The notes below the pieces were generated by a model. That model was not told the DNA's origin, did not search any database, and worked only from the letters and a program-made list of their open reading frames with translations. Shown piece after piece: positions 6,107 to 15,110 of a stretch of DNA of 34,837 nucleotides. The DNA lies in the NCBI GenBank assembly GCA_007125075.1, contig SLDX01000116.1, forward strand, positions 1 to 34,837. The letters run 5' to 3'. Position numbers and translations under genes: made by a program. The first letter of the stretch is position 1; every line of letters begins with the position of its first letter. Source of the stretch: Desulfonatronospira sp. (lineage in GTDB: Bacteria; Desulfobacterota; Desulfovibrionia; Desulfovibrionales; Desulfonatronovibrionaceae).

Positions 6107-6153
6107 AATCGATTGATTGCTCCAGCCGGCATCCAGCCGGCGGCTTATACGCC

Positions 6154-6354
6154 TCATGTACCCCCGTATCCTATGCTTACCTTGCCTCCGTCGATGATCA
6201 CCGGGACCTTGCGCTTGCCTCCGGAAAAATCAAGCATTTTCTGCAGCTCTTCAGGCTGTTCCAGGACATCTATATACTGATGATCTTTAAAGGCCTCCCG
6301 GGCCTTCTGAGTGTAAGGTCATCCGCTTTTTCCGTAAATGATCGGTCTGGACAT
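6154..6354 (-). CDS. Glutaredoxin-like selenoprotein (UXX-star type), TGA = Sec
   Basis: The ATG at 6354 has a good ribosome site (AAAGGAGATGCC). The frame has TGA at codon 12 (6321-6319), then stays open for 54 codons to a second TGA at 6156-6154, giving 66 residues. The product reads MSRPIIYGKSG-U-PYT, then a short helix-rich region, KVPVIIDGG and a GYGGT end. This is a thioredoxin-fold, glutaredoxin-like protein: Sec stands where the first Cys of CPYC would be, and a cis-Pro follows the VPV strand. It matches my recollection of the NCBIfam UXX-star (seleno)protein family. A SECIS-like hairpin follows the TGA. The gene starts 25 bp after the second amphi-Trp gene on the same strand, so it is probably the last gene of that operon. 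A likely role is thiol or selenol redox chemistry, substrate unknown. Standard gene finders would miss or truncate it. Confidence 0.85.
6290..6318 (-). promoter_or_regulatory. Bacterial SECIS-like hairpin after Sec codon
   Basis: On the minus strand, 12 nt after the TGA, the sequence AAGGCC-CGGGA-GGCCTT forms a perfect 6-bp stem with a 5-nt G-rich loop. The loop begins about 19 nt downstream of the TGA. Bacterial SECIS elements lie directly 3' of the Sec codon, with apical-loop guanines read by SelB, so spacing and loop fit. The hairpin is seen directly; SelB binding is inferred. Confidence 0.7.
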
Positions 6355-6379
6355 GGCATCTCCTTTGGATAATCTGTTT

Positions 6380-6829
6380 TTATGGCTCTTCCTTACGGGG
6401 GGTTTCCCGAAACTTTACCTTTTCAGCAGCTTCATCTTCGATTTCTTCAGGTTTTTCTTCTCCGGCAGTTATGGCCGGGCCGGAAGAAGCCAGAGATTTT
6501 TGTTCATAATTCTCAATTGCAGGTTCTGATTCTTTTTCAGATGCTTGTCCGGCTGCTTGAGCAGTGCCGGAAATAATCAAAGATTCGGTTTCAATATCGG
6601 CTTCCAGGCCTTCCTTCCAGCTGATTTCAATCTCCATCTTTTCTTTATTTTCCTTTGAGCCTGCTTTGATTTCCATTTTTGCGCGGGGTAAAGGGGTGAG
6701 CATTATCTGCTCTTCTCCATGCCGGATCATGATGCTCCCTTCTTTAAGAGCAGAAAGCAGATTTTCAAGACTGGCAATGATGTCTTCGTTTTCCATGACT
6801 CCTTTAAACTTCAGTTCATTCTTGTCCAT
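6380..6829 (-). CDS. Amphi-Trp domain protein with acidic C-terminal tail
   Basis: The ATG at 6829 is chosen because TTAGGAGGACAAT precedes it; an upstream ATG at 6871 in the same frame has no such site. The 149-residue product has two parts. Residues about 5-75 form an amphi-Trp-type domain: an amphipathic helix (ENEDIIASLENLLSALKEGS), an MIRHGEEQIMLTPLP strand pair and an EIEISWKEG end with the conserved Trp. The rest is a low-complexity Glu/Ala/Lys tail. Amphi-Trp domains are small, uncharacterised and often sit beside GAK-system genes. It follows the CofD-like gene by 43 bp. The function is unknown; a small adaptor or carrier role is a guess. Confidence 0.8.
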   Translation of the reverse strand: MDKNELKFKGVMENEDIIASLENLLSALKEGSIMIRHGEEQIMLTPLPRAKMEIKAGSKENKEKMEIEISWKEGLEADIETESLIISGTAQAAGQASEKESEPAIENYEQKSLASSGPAITAGEEKPEEIEDEAAEKVKFRETPRKEEP

Positions 6830-6872
6830 TATTGTCCTCCTAAGATTTCTCTGAATTAAATTTATAAACATT

Positions 6873-8087
6873 TCATATCATAGACAACAGCCTCTCGATG
6901 AGAAAATTTTCATCCAGATACATGTTTTTTTCCGAGCCGGCCAATGGAGCTTCAATGACCTGAATGCCCATGCCTTCAATGGCCCTGACATCCACACCGC
7001 CCTGATAAATATCCTTTTGTCGATCAATCAGGACAAAATTGAGCAGCTTGTGAACCGGAGTCTTTTCTTCGGCGCTGCGTTTAAGATAGTATAAAAGTAT
7101 TTCCACTCTCCCGGACAGTGAAGTGCCCATTTGTTCCGGATCGTACATTGTATTGGGAATAAAGATTTTCGGGCAGTCATTTTCCGCAATGGCCGCTCCT
7201 ACGCCGCGGGGAAGAAGGTTGGCTATCAGACTGGTGTAGAAGCTGCCCATGGGATAGCAGATCAGTTCTGCTTCATATATGAGCCTGCTGACTTTGCTCT
7301 TAATCCTAGGATGCAAAGGGGCAGGTTTTTCCAGGCTGCCGCTCAGATATAATCTCTGCACCCTTGAATCAATGGGTGGATACTCCTTGCCCGTAAGGGC
7401 ATGCTGTCCCGGGATGATACTCCCGTCTTCCAGGTGTGCGATCAGGTTCAGGGACCTGTTCATGATCGGTCTTACGGTTCCCCTGACTTCGGCCAGCTTG
7501 GAGAACAGAAAGATGACCGGATCTATATGGCGATTGTGGTGGAAATAGCCGGCTGTCAGGATCAGGTTGCCGATGCTGGCTCCGCGCAGATCAAAGTCAT
7601 GGGGCATTTTTTGAATAAAAGCGGAAAGATACCCCTGAACAATAGTGCGCATGGGTTCGAGAATGCCGCGCACCAGCGGATGTCGGCCTTCGGACATCCG
7701 GGTCAGTGTGCTCCTTAGCTTGTGGTTGTGGCTGTCTTTGGGGAGCCTGTGAACGAAAAGCGAATATATTTCCGGGTTGCCCTTGACGCTTTGATCTGCA
7801 AGAGCCATCAATCTGCTGCGCATATCTCCCACTGCCGGCATATGAAACGCATTGCGCAGTTTTGCCGAACTTCCCCCGGAGTCAAACGGTGTAACCAGAT
7901 GAATGGAATTGTGGGTATAGCGGACAAGAGCCCGGCTGAGGGGATTAAGCGCAGTGCCTCCGCTGAAAAAAAGGATTCTGGGGCCGAACTCCGGAGCTTT
8001 TTTATATCTGGTCAGCTTGACCGGATCAGGAATATTTACCGAACGGGAAATATTGACCTTATGCATGCCGGAAAAGCCGCTGTCCAT
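6873..8087 (-). CDS. GAK-system CofD-like protein
   Basis: The 404-residue protein has a phosphotransferase-like Rossmann region: FFSGGTALNPLSRALVRYTH at about 40-59, then TPFDSGGSSAKLR and MPAVGDMRSRLMALAD. Similar motifs occur in CofD (2-phospho-L-lactate transferase) and YvcK/GlmR, which bind nucleotide-linked ligands. The later segments GNLILTAGYFHHNR and YPMGSFYTSLIANLLPRGVG also fit that family. The strong SGGT and DSGGSS signatures match what I know of the NCBIfam GAK-system CofD-like family. The chemical reaction is unknown. The start overlaps the ATP-grasp stop by 29 bp at 8087. A second ATG at 8066 would give an 8-bp overlap; neither has a strong ribosome site. Translational coupling is likely. 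Confidence 0.88.
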   Translation of the reverse strand: MDSGFSGMHKVNISRSVNIPDPVKLTRYKKAPEFGPRILFFSGGTALNPLSRALVRYTHNSIHLVTPFDSGGSSAKLRNAFHMPAVGDMRSRLMALADQSVKGNPEIYSLFVHRLPKDSHNHKLRSTLTRMSEGRHPLVRGILEPMRTIVQGYLSAFIQKMPHDFDLRGASIGNLILTAGYFHHNRHIDPVIFLFSKLAEVRGTVRPIMNRSLNLIAHLEDGSIIPGQHALTGKEYPPIDSRVQRLYLSGSLEKPAPLHPRIKSKVSRLIYEAELICYPMGSFYTSLIANLLPRGVGAAIAENDCPKIFIPNTMYDPEQMGTSLSGRVEILLYYLKRSAEEKTPVHKLLNFVLIDRQKDIYQGGVDVRAIEGMGIQVIEAPLAGSEKNMYLDENFLIERLLSMI

Positions 8088-8997
8088 AGTTTTTTAGATC
8101 CGCTTCACCATTTATGTGTTTTAGAATATAATCCGCATACAAAGCCGCAGCGTTTATGCCCCGGCTTTCATAGAGACCCCTGAATCCTCCGAAGGCTGAA
8201 ACTTCAAATACCATCGGGCCTTGATCGGTTTCCACCACATCCACACAGGTGAAATCAAGGTTAAACAGAGCCTGGGCCTTTCCGGCCAGATCTATGATTT
8301 CTTTATCCGGCTCGCAGCGTTCATATCTGCCGCCGCTGGAAGTCGACGTGCTCCACGAATGGCCCTTGCGCCTGGCATAGGTGCCGATATAGTTTCCTCC
8401 CAGAAAAGCCAGCCCCAGGTCGCGTCCGGGAATTGTGAGCATCTTCTGGATGTAAATGGTGGTGTTTCCTGAAGCCTGAAACCCGGCTACACTTTCGCGG
8501 CAACTTTTTCCGTACTCCACCACGCGCATGCCTCTGGCCTTGGTCGAGAAAAGGGGTTTGAGCACAGCTCTGCCGAACCTTTCTACGGCCTGAACCGCCA
8601 GATCCACATCTTCAGTAATCACTGTGGGAGGCATGGGAATGCCGCCTATCTGCAGATTCACGGTGCAGCTCAACCTGTTCAGGGCCTGCATGATCATTTC
8701 CGGCCTGGAAAATACAGGCTTATTCAGAGCGCAAAAAAACCGAAGTATTTCCAGGCGATTGTACATGTCTGGAGAATAATCAGGACCGATTTTTTTGATC
8801 ATTAATCCGTCAAGTCCAGCCAGATCAAGATCTTTGTAAAACAAAGTCCTGCTGCCAAGATCAAAAACCGTTGAAGACAGGTCCACTATGCATCTGAAAC
8901 CTGTTCTTTCTTCCATGGCGTCAGCCATGATTTCAGTCGACCAGCTACCGGGATTGCCGATAACAGCGATTTTTTTGGCGTATTTTCCGGTTGTCAT
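8059..8997 (-). CDS. GAK-system ATP-grasp enzyme
   Basis: This 312-residue protein resembles RimK-type ATP-grasp ligases. It has an N-terminal preATP-grasp part, a lysine-containing segment (RAVLKPLFSTKARGMRVV), a central strand set (TIYIQKMLTIPGRDLGLAFLGG) and a C-terminal metal/ATP-binding stretch (CVDVVETDQGPMVFEVSAFGGFRGL). Such enzymes usually join a carboxylate to an amine through an acyl phosphate. The substrate here is not known. The serine/threonine-rich WSTSTSSGGRYERCE sits where RimK-like enzymes often have a mobile loop. It overlaps the CofD-like gene and follows the PhoU-APH gene after a 126-bp AT-rich gap in which I see no clear gene. Confidence 0.85.
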   Translation of the reverse strand: MTTGKYAKKIAVIGNPGSWSTEIMADAMEERTGFRCIVDLSSTVFDLGSRTLFYKDLDLAGLDGLMIKKIGPDYSPDMYNRLEILRFFCALNKPVFSRPEMIMQALNRLSCTVNLQIGGIPMPPTVITEDVDLAVQAVERFGRAVLKPLFSTKARGMRVVEYGKSCRESVAGFQASGNTTIYIQKMLTIPGRDLGLAFLGGNYIGTYARRKGHSWSTSTSSGGRYERCEPDKEIIDLAGKAQALFNLDFTCVDVVETDQGPMVFEVSAFGGFRGLYESRGINAAALYADYILKHINGEADLKNYGQRLFRHA

Positions 8998-9123
8998 AGG
9001 TTCTTCAAAAAGAATAATTATTCATGGTCATTCTTCAGGCGTTCTTGAGTACATAAAATTGAACTGTTATTATAAAATTCTGGATGTGTGTAAGTATAAT
9101 CAATAATTACTAAAGCCAAACCG

Positions 9124-10770
9124 TCAAAATCTGGAGTATTTAAAGACATCTCCTGGTATGGAAAAATCCTTCCAGGGCAGGTTCTGGTGGGAAATGAGCT
9201 TCTCAGCCAGATACAGGGCTCTCTGGTACATGCTAAGTGCAAAATCCCGGTTCAGCTCAAACCTTGTGGATGTAAAAAAAGAGCGTATCAAACCCAGTGC
9301 CAGGCGGGCATCATAGGTTATATCTCCGCTTTCAGCCGCGAATTGCCGGGTGAAGGAATAGAATTCCTGATTCAGGTGATTAATCGCCTGACGTACTCCG
9401 GCATCAAAGAGAGGCTTGCGGTAATTGGAAACCAGAAATACGGCGACATCCTGTACGTAATCGCCGTAACAGGACCTGTGCAGATCGACAAAATAGACCT
9501 GCTGCTCTTTCTGGTTGTAGATGATGTTGTTGGTATTCAAGTCTCCGTGGATAAATACGCTGAAGGAAGCTCCAAGACCGTTTTCCAGCTCGGAGAGGAT
9601 CTTGATGACATGGTTCAAAGAAGGAGTAGTAAAAGAACCGATCCTTACTTCGGAAAAGTTGAATTCAGGATGAATCATCAACACATCATCGATGCGCTGT
9701 ACAAGCTGAGAGATGAATCCGGCGTTGACCGGAGTATTCTTGATGGTCTCGTCCCAGACCAGGGACAGGGTTTCTTTGAGCAGAAACAAGGCATTTTCCA
9801 TGGTTTCCCTGTGCTGGGAAATCACTGTCTCCTGCAGTGAGCAGCCCTGGAGAAACTCGAGAAGCATGGAGGCGTTATCACCGCTTTGATTGTAGCTGTA
9901 GATTTTAGGTACAAGGCTTGGAAAAATTTTTCTCCAGGCTTCAATATTCTCCTTTTCTCTGAAAATCTTCCTGGATTTACCTTCCTTGAACAGAACCGCT
10001 CTACCGCTTCTTTCCGCTGGATCCATGATTTTGCCTATCCTGCATCCGGACCTGGTTTCCCAGATGGATTCGAAGCCCACATCCTGGATGGCAATATTGT
10101 TGTTGATGGAATCCAGGCTTTCAACCAGGGCCTGATATTGATGGACCTTCAGCTTTTCCCCGAACACCGAAAAAATTATGGCTTCCCCGATATTTAAAAG
10201 AGAATCGCCCATTCTTTCCAGGTAGCGAAAAATGAACAGGCAGGTAATCAGATCGCGCTTGTCGGCTGCGGAATCCATTTCTTCAATGATCTTATCGAAG
10301 CTGCGTTTGTACAGCTTATCCACCATGAATTCAGCTCTGCATATGCTCAGAGCATGGTTCAGATCTTTGTTGAACAGGCCCGGAACCACCTCTTCCAGGG
10401 CATTGGATATCTGTTCGAAAAAAGGGGGGTAGTTGTAGGCGTGCAGAAAATCGATCCGGGAAAGATAGCCCAGCTGAGCCACGATATTCACGGAAAAGTC
10501 GCTTATTCGTTCCAGATTGGTGCTGATTATGTTTACGGCCCGGATGAAATCAACCTTTTCCTTGGTCAGGTTGCTCTGCCCGTGGATTCTGGAAAAGCAC
10601 AGGTTTTCAAGAATCGATTTATAGTTGTCAATGCGGTCGTCTCTTAATTTGACTTTGTCCACCAGATCAGGAAGAGGATCATGGATGATTTTCAAGGTGT
10701 CTTCAAGCTGTCTGCTTACTTCGAGGACCATGAAACGAATTTTTTCTTCCAGATCATGAAAATAAGGCAT
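9124..10770 (-). CDS. PhoU-like domain fused to APH-type kinase
   Basis: The 548-residue protein appears to be a fusion. Residues about 1-220 are helical and look PhoU-like, with repeated motifs such as VNIISTNLERISDFSVNIV and FIFRYLERMGDSLLNIGEA, matching the E/DR..D...N pattern that binds metal in PhoU. Residues about 235-500 resemble an aminoglycoside/choline-type phosphotransferase: the catalytic loop HGDLNTNN (His408, Asp410, Asn415) and the metal-binding VDLHR (Asp429), followed by GDYVQDVAVFL. It therefore probably phosphorylates a small molecule or protein, possibly in response to a metal or phosphate state. A ribosome site AAGGAAAAATAA precedes the ATG. It lies between an amphi-Trp gene and the ATP-grasp gene. 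The substrate is unknown. Confidence 0.82.
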   Translation of the reverse strand: MPYFHDLEEKIRFMVLEVSRQLEDTLKIIHDPLPDLVDKVKLRDDRIDNYKSILENLCFSRIHGQSNLTKEKVDFIRAVNIISTNLERISDFSVNIVAQLGYLSRIDFLHAYNYPPFFEQISNALEEVVPGLFNKDLNHALSICRAEFMVDKLYKRSFDKIIEEMDSAADKRDLITCLFIFRYLERMGDSLLNIGEAIIFSVFGEKLKVHQYQALVESLDSINNNIAIQDVGFESIWETRSGCRIGKIMDPAERSGRAVLFKEGKSRKIFREKENIEAWRKIFPSLVPKIYSYNQSGDNASMLLEFLQGCSLQETVISQHRETMENALFLLKETLSLVWDETIKNTPVNAGFISQLVQRIDDVLMIHPEFNFSEVRIGSFTTPSLNHVIKILSELENGLGASFSVFIHGDLNTNNIIYNQKEQQVYFVDLHRSCYGDYVQDVAVFLVSNYRKPLFDAGVRQAINHLNQEFYSFTRQFAAESGDITYDARLALGLIRSFFTSTRFELNRDFALSMYQRALYLAEKLISHQNLPWKDFSIPGDVFKYSRF

Positions 10771-10826
10771 TTATTTTTCCTTGTCCGCATTCAACCATGA
10801 TCTCCGGTAATGAAGTACTGTCCGGG

Positions 10827-11057
10827 TCAATCCTGGTCCGTCCATCTGAAATTAATGCTGAGCTGAATTTCTTCGTCCTTTTTCCGGGCTTTGATGGAAA
10901 GCTGAATCAAACCTCCAGGCTCCAAAATCAGGGTCTCATCCTGATGGGACAGACTGATCCTGCCATCCTGAAAACCGTCTTTAAGCGCCTCCAGGTATTT
11001 GCAGATGGTTTGTCTGTCCTGAAGAGATTCCATTGAGAATTTTTTTTCTTTGGTCAT
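10827..11057 (-). CDS. Short amphi-Trp domain protein
   Basis: This 76-residue protein is an amphi-Trp domain alone. It begins MTKEKKFSMESLQDRQTICK, continues through an amphipathic helix (YLEALKDGFQDG), a strand pair and a final QLSINFRWTDQD with the characteristic Trp. I chose the ATG at 11057. The longer frame to 11114 starts with TTG and would add a 19-residue N-terminus that does not look conserved. The ribosome site is weak. It is a diverged paralogue of the protein at 6380-6829 and sits in the same cluster. Confidence 0.8.
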   Translation of the reverse strand: MTKEKKFSMESLQDRQTICKYLEALKDGFQDGRISLSHQDETLILEPGGLIQLSIKARKKDEEIQLSINFRWTDQD

Positions 11058-11128
11058 TTTTAGTCCACGTGATGGAAAATCATTAGAATTTACCCAGGCT
11101 GCCAAACCAATCAACAGGTGTTTCAGTT

Positions 11129-12319
11129 CTATTGAAGCCTGGCCCGGTATTCTTCCAATACTTTCCAGCGGTCAAAATTGCCCACGATCAAAGCCTTTTT
11201 GATGGTCAGCTCGTTCCAGGCAGGCTGAACCCCGATTTCCCGGTAATATTTGGTCGCATCGATTTGAGTCGGATCCTTTATCTTTTCCCCCATATGCGTG
11301 TCATCACCCATGAAAACCAGCAAAGGCCTTTGAGATTTACTGCGCGATCTGTTCTGGCGGTGGATGACGTTGATCAGAAATTCGGTATATTCCTGAGATT
11401 GAGGATTCCACACTTCATAGCCGTCGATATCGTAGTCGCAAAGCAGGATCGGCCAGAACTGTTCCGGATGAGGAACAACGATGCCCGCACCAATGCTTCT
11501 TGCTTCTTCAATAACCTCCGATGTCCGGTAGAAGTAGTCCAGGCTGAAGTTGGCCTTGACGATTTTTTTCACCGCTTTGAGAAATACCTGTACCCGATTG
11601 ATGAAATACACCGGGTAGAATTGTTTCTGCTGGTCCACAAAATCGCGGAGCAGCTTGTTTTTAAAAAAGTCCCTGGAGATAGTATCCTCTTTTTCTCGCA
11701 CAAGACGATACAATTTGTGCGTCTGGATCCTGGCGAACTGAATTTCTTTTTCTCCTACCCCGGTTTCTTCTGCCGCCAGCTGCAGATAATCTTCCCATTT
11801 TGGGTCCACGAGCGTTTCCAGAAGTTCGAAAAACTGACTGGAGCGGTATTCAAAGGTATGGGCAAGCATGGATTTAAGAATATCCCCCTTGCCCGAAACA
11901 TCACTTTTAAAGTGCAGAAGGAGCTGTACCTTGCGCTTGAATCCCCTGGAGTAGCAGTCCACCTCCACTCCATGGTATAGGCCGTCGTAGGTCATAAGCT
12001 GGTTGTGCTGGGTGGGTATGATCAGTTCTTTTTCTTTGAAAGGAAAGGTGTTTTCAATACGTTTCCTGATCAGTTCCATGGGTATGTATTCAGGATGCCA
12101 GTGAACAGCTAAAACTGTTTTATGTTCCGGAAATGCCTGGACAGGATTTATTATTCTGTTGAGTTCTTCCGGAGTGAGCTGGACGCAGGTGATATCCGAA
12201 AATATCCTGTAGTCCGTTTCAGTAATGTCCTGAACTAATGCTTCAGGTTCAAGAACCTGGTCTTTGGTCCTGGAGGCGGACAGTTCAGTGTCTGGTGCCG
12301 ATTTTTGAATTTTGTGCAT
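11129..12319 (-). CDS. PHP-like histidine-rich protein of the GAK-type cluster
   Basis: I do not recognise a named family. The 396-residue protein contains several metal-ligand-like motifs in a plausible PHP-phosphoesterase order: LAVHWHPEYIP near the N-terminus, IPTQHNQLMTYDGLYHGVEVD, IGAGIVVPHPEQFWPI, CDYDIDGYEVWNPQ and FMGDDTHMGEK. Such spaced His, Asp and Glu clusters occur in PHP-type metallohydrolases and in AMP/polyphosphate-cleaving relatives. The domain assignment is inferred from motif order alone. The ATG at 12319 has no good ribosome site. A sigma-70-like promoter lies so close that the transcript might be nearly leaderless. It is the first gene of the minus-strand cluster. Confidence 0.6.
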   Translation of the reverse strand: MHKIQKSAPDTELSASRTKDQVLEPEALVQDITETDYRIFSDITCVQLTPEELNRIINPVQAFPEHKTVLAVHWHPEYIPMELIRKRIENTFPFKEKELIIPTQHNQLMTYDGLYHGVEVDCYSRGFKRKVQLLLHFKSDVSGKGDILKSMLAHTFEYRSSQFFELLETLVDPKWEDYLQLAAEETGVGEKEIQFARIQTHKLYRLVREKEDTISRDFFKNKLLRDFVDQQKQFYPVYFINRVQVFLKAVKKIVKANFSLDYFYRTSEVIEEARSIGAGIVVPHPEQFWPILLCDYDIDGYEVWNPQSQEYTEFLINVIHRQNRSRSKSQRPLLVFMGDDTHMGEKIKDPTQIDATKYYREIGVQPAWNELTIKKALIVGNFDRWKVLEEYRARLQ

Positions 12320-12392: not shown

Positions 12393-12872
12393 TTAATTGC
12401 CGCGTCCTTTACTAATGCAGACGATCTGCGGATCAAATTCAGCCCTGACCACCAGAACCGAGCATTCGGCAAAGCGGACCACTCTTGAGGCATTGGAGCC
12501 GATGAAATATTCGCTTAAGGTCATGCGGTGCGCGGGCATGACGATCAAGTCCACCCCGAACTGTTTTGCTGTCTTCAGGATCCTGCGGTAGACCGTTCCC
12601 TGGGCCACAATGTGCTGAATATCGATATCGTCGGGTATGTCTTTGGTCACCTGCTCATGGAGCAGTCTTTCCGCTTCCTCCACAATGCGGTTGCCGGCAT
12701 CCGGTGGAAGGTAATGTCCGACAATGGGCATGCCCACATCAGGTACAACGGTCAGAATATGCAGCCTGGCATCACAGAAGCGGCAGAGCTCGACAGCCTT
12801 GTTCAGGGCCAGATTGCGCAGGCGTTCGTCTTCTTCCTGCAGATCCACAGGCACCAGAATGCGCGTGTACAT
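12393..12872 (-). CDS. Universal stress protein (UspA family)
   Basis: A 159-residue single UspA domain. It starts MYTRILVPVDL, has an HIVAQGTVYRRILKTAKQ segment, then VDLIVMPAHR and SNASRVVRFAECSVLVVRAE, which correspond to the ATP-binding half with the G-x9-G-S/T-like loop here altered to IGSNASRVV. It starts 6 bp after the TRAP permease stop. Its ribosome site (AAAGGAGGATAACAACCC) spans that stop codon, so the two are coupled. Usp genes often accompany TRAP transporters (for example teaD with teaABC), where they may tune transport. The role is inferred from context. Confidence 0.9.
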   Translation of the reverse strand: MYTRILVPVDLQEEDERLRNLALNKAVELCRFCDARLHILTVVPDVGMPIVGHYLPPDAGNRIVEEAERLLHEQVTKDIPDDIDIQHIVAQGTVYRRILKTAKQFGVDLIVMPAHRMTLSEYFIGSNASRVVRFAECSVLVVRAEFDPQIVCISKGRGN

Positions 12873-12878
12873 GGGTTG

Positions 12879-15110
12879 TTATCCTCCTTTATCCACGGTT
12901 TTCATGTAAGCCAGCCTTTTTTTGAGCATGATTTTCTGAAAGATGTATAGAGCAAAGAACATGCATACTCCAAGTATCTGCATGCCCAGACGGTCAAAAG
13001 GCATGTAGGCTTCAAACACGCCCGGCCTGAAAGCAGTGGAGCAGGCCAGCAGCAGGTACAGCCTTTCATACCATCTGCACTTCACGACCAGCCAGCCCTG
13101 CAGGGCCGAAGCAAAGGCGAACATGGCGATCAGTCCTGAAAAGAAGACCCAGACTATGCGCACGGGATCGTCCATCCAGATGATTCCTCCGGCCGCGGTT
13201 ACGCCGGCGATCATGAGCAGCTCAGTGTTGAACAGAAAGATAAAGGGCAGAATTATGGTCCGCAGGCTGTAGTAGAAGGCCTGCACTCCGGTTTTTATGG
13301 GATCGGACCTGGCTATGGCCGCACCGGCATAAGAAGCAAGTCCCACCGGCGGAGTGACGTCAGCCAGGATGCCGAAATAGAAGACAAAAAGATGTACAGC
13401 GATAATGGGAAAGATAATGCCCATGTCCGCGCCAAGGGTTATGATTACCGGAGCAGTCAGAGTAGCCATGATGATGTAGTTGGCTGTAGTGGGCATGCCC
13501 ATGCCCAGAATCAGGCTGGTCATGGCCGTAAAAACCAGCATGAGAGCCATATTGCCCATGGACAGAACATCGATGATGTTTACGAACCGGCCGACCAGGC
13601 CGGTGATGGTCACCACCCCGACTATGATCCCTGCTGTGGCGGTGGCAATTCCGACTGAAATCATGTTCCTGGCGCCCATGATCAGCCCGTTCCAGACATC
13701 TCTGAAGCCGTCCACAAAAGCGCCGCCGACAAAACGCTTGAGGTTGAGATTCGGATCCAGAGTACCCGTCCTGCGGTGATATCCAAGCGAAAGAAAAGCG
13801 ATAATCGGGCGCTGCATTAGCATGAGCACAATAAGACTCTGGACCGCGTACAGGGCGGAAGCAACAGGGGAGCGTCTGAGAATTACCAGATAAATAATCA
13901 GTACCGCCAGAGGTATCAAAAAATGAAGCCCCCTGAGAAAGGTCTTCCAGAATTTTGGGAGATCCTCTCGGGCAATGGCTTTAACCCCCATTTTCAGGGA
14001 TTCAAGATGCACTACATAAAGAAGGGCAAGATAGGCGATCACTGCCGGGAAAAGTGCGGCCCTGACCACGTCCAGATAGGGAATGCCTATTATCTCAGCC
14101 ATGATGAAGGCTGCCGCACCCATTATGGGCGGCATGATCTGACCGTTTGTGGAAGCTGCGACTTCAACAGCGCCGGCCTTATGACCGGGAAAGCCCACCT
14201 TTTTCATCAGAGGTATGGTGAAAGTCCCGGTGGTTACGGTATTGGCAATGGAGGAACCGGAGACCATGCCGGTCATCCCTGAAGCCAGAACCGCTGCCTT
14301 GGCCGGTCCGCCCCTGAAAGTACCCAGGGCGGAAAAAGCGATGTCGATAAAATATTTTCCTCCTCCGGCTCTTTCCAGAAGGGCTCCGAAAAGGACGAAT
14401 AAAAATACGAAAGATACGGATACTCCGAGTGGGACGCCGAAAATACCCGTGGTGGTCAGATACATGTCGCTGATGACGAAATCCATGGGCAAGCCTCTGA
14501 AGCGCAGGATTTCCGGCAGATAAGGCCCAACGAAGTTATAAATCAGAAAAATTGTGGCCAGAATGGCCAGGGCGGGTCCCAGAGCCCTTCTGGCGGCTTC
14601 GAGCAGTAAAATTATGAGGATGGTTCCCAGGATGATGTCCGTGGTATTGGGCATGCCCTGACGAAATATGAGGTTTTCGTAATCCCACCAGATATAAAGT
14701 GCCGCGGTCATGCCCAGGGCGGCGAACAGCCAATCATAAAAGGGTATGGTTTTTCTGATGGATTTACGGGCGAAAGCAGGGATTATCTTCTGGGTCCAGC
14801 TGACCCACATTGGTTTGGAGTGCTGTTTGTAGGCCGGATAAGCCAAAAATGCCAGACCTAAGGCAAAAGCGAGGTGCCAGGCCCTGGCTACGTGAGCATT
14901 TATGGGATCATGGGCGATATACAGCTGAAATCCGGACCAGACCACACAAAGAAGTATGATGATGTTTCTGGCAATAAAGCTTTTCGGGTCTCTGGCCCCG
15001 GCTTCGACCATGACCACCAGGTCTTTTGCCGCTTCCTTGGTCTGGCGTTTTTTTTCAGTTGATTTCTGTACTTCCGGGTCAACAGCTGGTTTTCCGGACT
15101 CATCGCTCAT
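12879..15110 (-). CDS. TRAP transporter fused permease (TAXI type)
   Basis: A 743-residue membrane protein in which the small (DctQ-like) and large (DctM-like) TRAP permease subunits are fused, as usual with TAXI binding proteins. A charged cytoplasmic N-terminus of about 45 residues precedes many hydrophobic segments. Typical DctM motifs are GSSIANTVTTGTFTIPLMK, NGQIMPPIMGAAAFIMAE, LGMGMPTTANYIIMATLTAP and VTPPVGLASYAGAAIA. It imports an organic acid or amino-acid-like solute using a Na+ or H+ gradient; the substrate cannot be read from sequence. AGGAAACCCAG precedes the ATG. It is followed by uspA and preceded by the binding-protein gene on the same strand. Confidence 0.93.
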   Translation of the reverse strand: MSDESGKPAVDPEVQKSTEKKRQTKEAAKDLVVMVEAGARDPKSFIARNIIILLCVVWSGFQLYIAHDPINAHVARAWHLAFALGLAFLAYPAYKQHSKPMWVSWTQKIIPAFARKSIRKTIPFYDWLFAALGMTAALYIWWDYENLIFRQGMPNTTDIILGTILIILLLEAARRALGPALAILATIFLIYNFVGPYLPEILRFRGLPMDFVISDMYLTTTGIFGVPLGVSVSFVFLFVLFGALLERAGGGKYFIDIAFSALGTFRGGPAKAAVLASGMTGMVSGSSIANTVTTGTFTIPLMKKVGFPGHKAGAVEVAASTNGQIMPPIMGAAAFIMAEIIGIPYLDVVRAALFPAVIAYLALLYVVHLESLKMGVKAIAREDLPKFWKTFLRGLHFLIPLAVLIIYLVILRRSPVASALYAVQSLIVLMLMQRPIIAFLSLGYHRRTGTLDPNLNLKRFVGGAFVDGFRDVWNGLIMGARNMISVGIATATAGIIVGVVTITGLVGRFVNIIDVLSMGNMALMLVFTAMTSLILGMGMPTTANYIIMATLTAPVIITLGADMGIIFPIIAVHLFVFYFGILADVTPPVGLASYAGAAIARSDPIKTGVQAFYYSLRTIILPFIFLFNTELLMIAGVTAAGGIIWMDDPVRIVWVFFSGLIAMFAFASALQGWLVVKCRWYERLYLLLACSTAFRPGVFEAYMPFDRLGMQILGVCMFFALYIFQKIMLKKRLAYMKTVDKGG

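Follow-up and report, generated by a model that had tools for sequence, protein, structure and literature searches.

A GAK gene cluster of Desulfonatronospira with two separable sub-modules, and the genomic linkage of GAK in relatives to high-affinity phosphate transport

A run of seven genes in a Desulfonatronospira-type MAG is a real GAK cluster, ordinary except that HprK_rel_B is unlinked or lost and XXXCH is lost. The GAK system most likely serves cytoplasmic phosphate homeostasis, a reading to which we give a probability of about 50%. The name GAK comes from NCBI, and we know of no biochemistry assigned to the system; literature searches of one library returned no papers on GAK, on amphi-Trp or on the combination of these families. 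The window, which is the whole stretch of 34,837 nucleotides analyzed here, is contig C28 of the genome under study (G000), a MAG of 97% completeness.

All seven products were found, encoded on the minus strand and separated by short gaps, as the earlier note had described, and the shared strand and spacing suggest that the genes are co-transcribed. In the order of transcription, the cluster encodes a PHP-like protein of 396 aa with a helical insert at about residues 146-256 (11129..12319), amphi-Trp protein 1 (10827..11057, likely ATG at 11057), a PhoU domain fused to an APH-type kinase of 548 aa (9124..10770), an ATP-grasp protein of 312 aa with a ligase fold (8059..8997), a CofD-like protein of 404 aa (6873..8087, with a later start near 8066 possible), amphi-Trp protein 2 (6380..6829, likely ATG at 6829) and a UXX-star selenoprotein (6145..6354). 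Scans of the locus for promoters and terminators gave only chance-level hits, and an Rfam search over it gave no match. A UspA-like gene (12872-12393) lies just upstream on the same strand, followed further upstream by a gene for a TRAP-type permease (15110-12879, same strand), both named from sequence; this pair (12393-15110) was retained near GAK in about six relatives' loci.

NCBIfam models identified the ATP-grasp protein as grasp_GAK (TIGR04356, 438 bits against a cut-off of 300) and the CofD-like protein as CofD_rel_GAK (TIGR04357, 555 bits against 340), both far over the GAK cut-offs, while the two small proteins matched amphi-Trp (TIGR04354) with 69 and 57 bits against 31. The proposal that the locus is of the GAK type was thus borne out. 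In Pfam, the PhoU-APH protein matched PF01895 (PhoU) and PF01636 (APH). Compared with the GAK system of NCBIfam (TIGR04354, TIGR04355, TIGR04356, TIGR04357 and TIGR04358), the locus shares the ATP-grasp protein, the CofD-like protein and two amphi-Trp proteins, but it has no linked HprK_rel_B (TIGR04355) and no linked XXXCH (TIGR04358). XXXCH was not found in the cluster, and only a short paralogue occurs elsewhere in the genome (G000:C87). Since the clusters of G014 and G022 likewise have no XXXCH, it was not treated as essential. The PHP and PhoU-APH proteins match no GAK-named model, yet they are regular members of GAK clusters.

DNA was fetched around 35 GAK loci of the order and some 30 others of the phylum, and profiles built from the proteins of the window served to label the neighboring genes. 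The usual order was (XXXCH), PHP, amphi-Trp, PhoU-APH, ATP-grasp, HprK_rel_B, CofD and amphi-Trp 2, and the whole or a large part of it was found in seven further families of Desulfobacterota (f18, f33, f37, f39, f44, f64 and f90). PHP, amphi-Trp, PhoU-APH and ATP-grasp also stand in this order in a Coatesbacteria MAG (L032), whose contig ends there. PhoU-APH precedes ATP-grasp in all but two of 36 loci of the order. Because the gene order is conserved over so many families, chance was ruled out. The earlier note had named lack of conservation as grounds for giving up its proposal, and the neighbors proved to be conserved in related genomes; its view of PHP and PhoU-APH as extra partners was overturned, both being standard cluster members in many families. 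The ATP-grasp protein of the window is 90% identical to that of another Desulfonatronospira record (L031). In an even sample of 394 genomes of the phylum, ATP-grasp_GAK was present in 23, and the PHP protein was found in 21 of these 23 versus 8 of the 371 others. Most members of the phylum are without GAK although they also need phosphate, which indicated that the system is accessory and weighs against a role in phosphate homeostasis.

The cluster consists of two separable sub-modules, PHP with amphi-Trp and PhoU-APH on one side, and ATP-grasp with HprK_rel_B, the CofD-like protein and amphi-Trp 2 on the other. In family f82 (L130-L133), PHP, amphi-Trp and PhoU-APH form a trio of their own, and ATP-grasp, HprK and CofD are missing. 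Genus g16 has the trio, together with XXXCH and a second HprK_rel_B, at a place apart from the ATP-grasp/HprK/CofD set, and in genus g12 a divergent CofD_rel_GAK alone remains. No further biosynthetic or redox enzymes were generally conserved with the cluster when the genes around the loci were clustered. Several side observations were also made. The f82 trios lie near genes resembling those for DnaX and YbaB. In g12 (L113-L119, L128), a gene for a PiT-family permease, whose cargo could be phosphate or sulfate, lies a few kb from the lone CofD_rel_GAK. Several loci have a PHP-GT4 fusion glycosyltransferase next to GAK (L035:4825-7287, L033, L037, L041-L043, L064 and L098), which is possibly a glycolipid synthase of relevance to lipid swapping at low phosphate. 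Its PHP domain was considered as a version of the GAK PHP protein and rejected, there being no profile similarity between the two.

The selenoprotein was real, its score for UXX-star family 1 (NF041114) being 110 bits where the cut-off is 72. The end at 6154 assigned to it earlier was wrong, since that TGA (6156-6154) is a second Sec codon after the first at 6321-6319, and the frame runs on to a TAA at about 6145. Both in-frame TGAs are kept in the congeners G002 and G005, two Sec residues occur in most family members of GAK genomes, and SelB is present in G000. In the SECIS test, folding after the two TGAs was no more stable than that of shuffled sequences, and Rfam gave no match. The family is already known and is catalogued as having UxxT and two Sec in each protein (PMC13188914), and the window protein is like it in score, UxxT and two Sec, with no notable difference. 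UXX-star scored over the cut-off in 15 of 33 GAK genomes, adjacent to GAK only in G000, G002 and G005, all of this genus. It was therefore rejected as a general GAK component, and the suggestion that it is a partner of the cluster was not supported; it is probably a neighbor and not a part of GAK.

The HprK-related kinase, noted earlier as expected but not seen, was missing not only from the cluster; no HprK_rel_B was found in the whole assembled genome. In the congeners G002 and G005 this gene lies 339 bp from pstA. In G000 the contig with phoB-phoR-phoU-pstB ends inside a truncated pstB (L139, G000:C26:1-12977), and pstC and pstA are missing from the assembly. The absence of HprK_rel_B is uncertain, because the site that it occupies beside pstA in the congeners is missing here. 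Loss of Pst had been suggested by the zero matches to PstA and was withdrawn, as pstB is truncated at a contig end. Real loss of HprK_rel_B also occurs in the genus, since G003 has pstCA and no HprK_rel_B was found in it. Overall, HprK_rel_B was present in 21 of the 23 ATP-grasp_GAK genomes and, at the threshold used, nowhere else in the 394-genome sample; the other ATP-grasp genome without it is G168, whose cluster stops after ATP-grasp (L136). That PhoU-APH has replaced HprK_rel_B in this genome, as its absence from the assembly might suggest, is very improbable, since the two kinases coexist in most clusters and the assembly breaks in pstB and has no pstA, the gene that the G002 and G005 copies adjoin. 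Nor are the two kinases mutually exclusive, as the earlier note had asked, with at least 17 loci carrying both.

The PHP-like product had no match in Pfam or NCBIfam, nor, by sequence, in the PDB. Its AlphaFold2 model (pLDDT 87) was searched with Foldseek, and the four best PDB matches were all PHP phosphoesterases (E 2e-5 to 2e-3, probability 1.00), namely RNase AM (9etk), BAD_1165 (3e0f/3o0f) and Cv1693 (2yb1). The residues invariant among 28-46 orthologues were H73xH75, E77, TQH105N, E119, H136, H284 and D340xH342. The GAK protein shares the fold and the metal-ligand pattern with RNase AM and Cv1693, whereas it has HxHxE in place of HxHx4D, a large helical insert and no detectable sequence match in the PDB. 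RNase AM works with three metals, by a mechanism that it shares with Cv1693 (PMC9410882). With the fold and the ligand pattern in place and one ligand position different, phosphoesterase activity is predicted from model and motifs, and the assignment of individual ligands is likewise a reading of motifs.

The catalytic signatures of the other enzymes were also intact. In PhoU-APH, K262, H408-G-D410-x-N412-xx-N415 and D429 were invariant (25-49 orthologues). Among 34-49 orthologues, the following were invariant or nearly so: the Walker A motif GxSGxGKST and NDR of HprK_rel_B; K147, K153, D253 and E265 of the ATP-grasp protein; and DSGGSSA and GSFyxS of the CofD-like protein. The ATP-grasp protein has LysX/RimK as its nearest solved relatives (3vpd/1uc8, about 3e-20) and MptN as its nearest characterised model (149 bits). 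ATP-grasp enzymes usually carry a metal-binding ExN. The GAK protein shares the ATP-grasp fold with RimK, LysX and MptN, but an invariant ExS (EVSAFGG) replaces this motif. The CofD-like protein matched PF01933, the CofD-family fold, and TIGR01826 with 120 bits. Its matches in NCBIfam are of the YvcK type and those of its PDB profile exclusively so (2ppv, 1e-33); YvcK/GlmR are its closest solved structures, and it is nearer to them than to CofD, the 2-phospho-L-lactate transferase. GlmR is an accessory UDP-GlcNAc uridyltransferase, the activity of which depends on D40, D41 and N198 (PMC10128056). Listeria GlmR has been tested at two neighboring Asp residues, and at the second of these positions the CofD-like protein has an invariant Ser by motif alignment (FDSGGSS); a uridyltransferase reaction was therefore not assumed.

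For amphi-Trp 1, the AlphaFold2 model (pLDDT 93) consists of one helix and four strands, and a fold search against the PDB gave no match. Among the amphi-Trp proteins, W71 is the sole invariant residue and K59 is nearly so, with no Ser or Thr common to all. The tail of amphi-Trp 2 is variable, charged and probably disordered, and a motif of the SSGPAI type recurs in it in several relatives. XXXCH (L049:4974-5687 and orthologues, alignment A3) appears to combine an amphi-Trp-like N-terminal half (hhalign 95%) and a cytochrome c'-like C-terminal helix (PDB cytochrome c', E 6e-5) in which the first haem Cys is lost while the C and H are invariant. A second XXXCH gene was seen about 6 kb from pst in G022 (G022:C1:578617-578886, L082), with the GAK cluster far off.

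PstC, PstA, PstB and PhoU were among the genes clustered around GAK loci, and their identity was confirmed by curated models. PstA/PstC were located in 41 genomes and one genome was taken per genus, giving 24 genera. A distance of at most 5 kb between a GAK component and pst was seen in 5 of the 24 genera versus 0.16 expected (P about 5e-7, uncorrected for ancestry), and one of at most 20 kb in 8 of them versus 0.45 expected (P about 7e-9, likewise uncorrected), where the P-values assume uniform gene placement and independent genera. The expectation was generous, as it allowed for all combinations of a GAK piece with a pst piece; a pair split between two contigs was scored as a miss. The closeness of GAK to pst is non-random. 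Sixteen of the 24 genera had no pst gene within 20 kb, and the cluster of the window and pst are on different contigs. All five copies of HprK_rel_B outside the main cluster were on the pst contig, at 339 bp from pstA (G002 and G005), 5.3 kb (G010), 18 kb (G020) and 30 kb (G007). In G005, a second GAK copy consists of a PHP-GT4 fusion, PhoU-APH, ATP-grasp and amphi-Trp, followed on the opposite strand by pstC, pstA and HprK_rel_B, with pstB and phoU further on, and in G207 a lone CofD_rel_GAK lies directly behind pstCAB-phoU. As a small informal control, UXX-star genes away from GAK showed no such closeness to PstA. A Pho box of the E. coli-type consensus was not enriched in 47 regions upstream of clusters, and CofD and PHP go unmentioned in a study of pooled D. 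alaskensis mutants under low phosphate. The linkage to pst points to phosphate physiology, a role that the earlier note had not put forward.

Under the phosphate-homeostasis reading, the cluster is best read as two halves, a phosphate-linked kinase and phosphoesterase and a ligase with a YvcK-like protein. The PhoU domain would tune the APH kinase to the status of phosphate transport, as PhoU does with PstB/PhoR. The kinase would phosphorylate a small metabolite or a carrier, and the PHP enzyme would strip the phosphate off again, so that the two form an opposed pair. The second sub-module, with its RimK-like ligase, HprK-like kinase and YvcK-like protein, may attach or control an amino-acid or nucleotide-derived group, and the amphi-Trp proteins may be acceptors or scaffolds, as their co-conservation suggests. 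The conserved active sites are compatible with the earlier idea of a putative tag or cofactor that is built, modified and removed. A more specific proposal, which we consider unlikely, is that GAK is an unrecognised form of phosphate signalling, where the PhoU-coupled kinase and the PHP phosphoesterase would control how much there is of a dedicated phosphorylated metabolite or carrier tag, and the ATP-grasp/CofD/HprK/amphi-Trp half would read or conjugate it.

Two other readings were weighed. CofD acts with CofE/CofF in F420 synthesis and MptN in that of tetrahydrosarcinapterin, and on these models GAK could be a pathway for a cofactor or small metabolite: the CofD-like protein would make a phosphodiester or nucleotide-linked intermediate, the MptN/RimK-like ligase would add an amino acid, and the product would contain or spare phosphate, this being the sole reason for the phosphate neighbors. 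The score to MptN among characterised models and the CofD-family fold both fit, and two kinases with a phosphoesterase suit a route through phospho-metabolites. However, the CofD-like protein is nearer to YvcK/GlmR than to CofD, the cluster brings with it no general set of biosynthetic or redox enzymes, and two to three copies of a small amphi-Trp protein suit a protein-centered system better, so we regard this pathway as possible but doubtful.

Such a protein-centered system could be one of protein modification, in which HprK_rel_B and the RimK-like ligase act on amphi-Trp and on XXXCH as well; phosphorylation of HPr/Crh by HprK and glutamylation of S6 by RimK are the comparisons. The two to three small proteins of the amphi-Trp type per cluster, including the amphi-Trp-like half of XXXCH, would be suitable targets, as would the charged tail of amphi-Trp 2 with its recurring motif, and the substrates of LysX and RimK are carrier proteins or the tails of proteins. 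But the invariant residue of amphi-Trp is a Trp, with a nearly invariant Lys and no conserved Ser or Thr, and the f82 trio exists without HprK or ligase, which makes this reading rather improbable.

Phosphate homeostasis remains the preferred reading. The present results add to GAK a fuller gene list, with the PhoU-kinase and the PHP phosphoesterase, the division into two sub-modules and the first statistical pointer to phosphate. Sulfate reducers in which glycolipids and ornithine lipids take the place of phospholipids when phosphate is low (PMC5193443) are natural hosts for testing GAK. With the gene list, the sub-modules and the link to high-affinity phosphate transport, GAK becomes testable.
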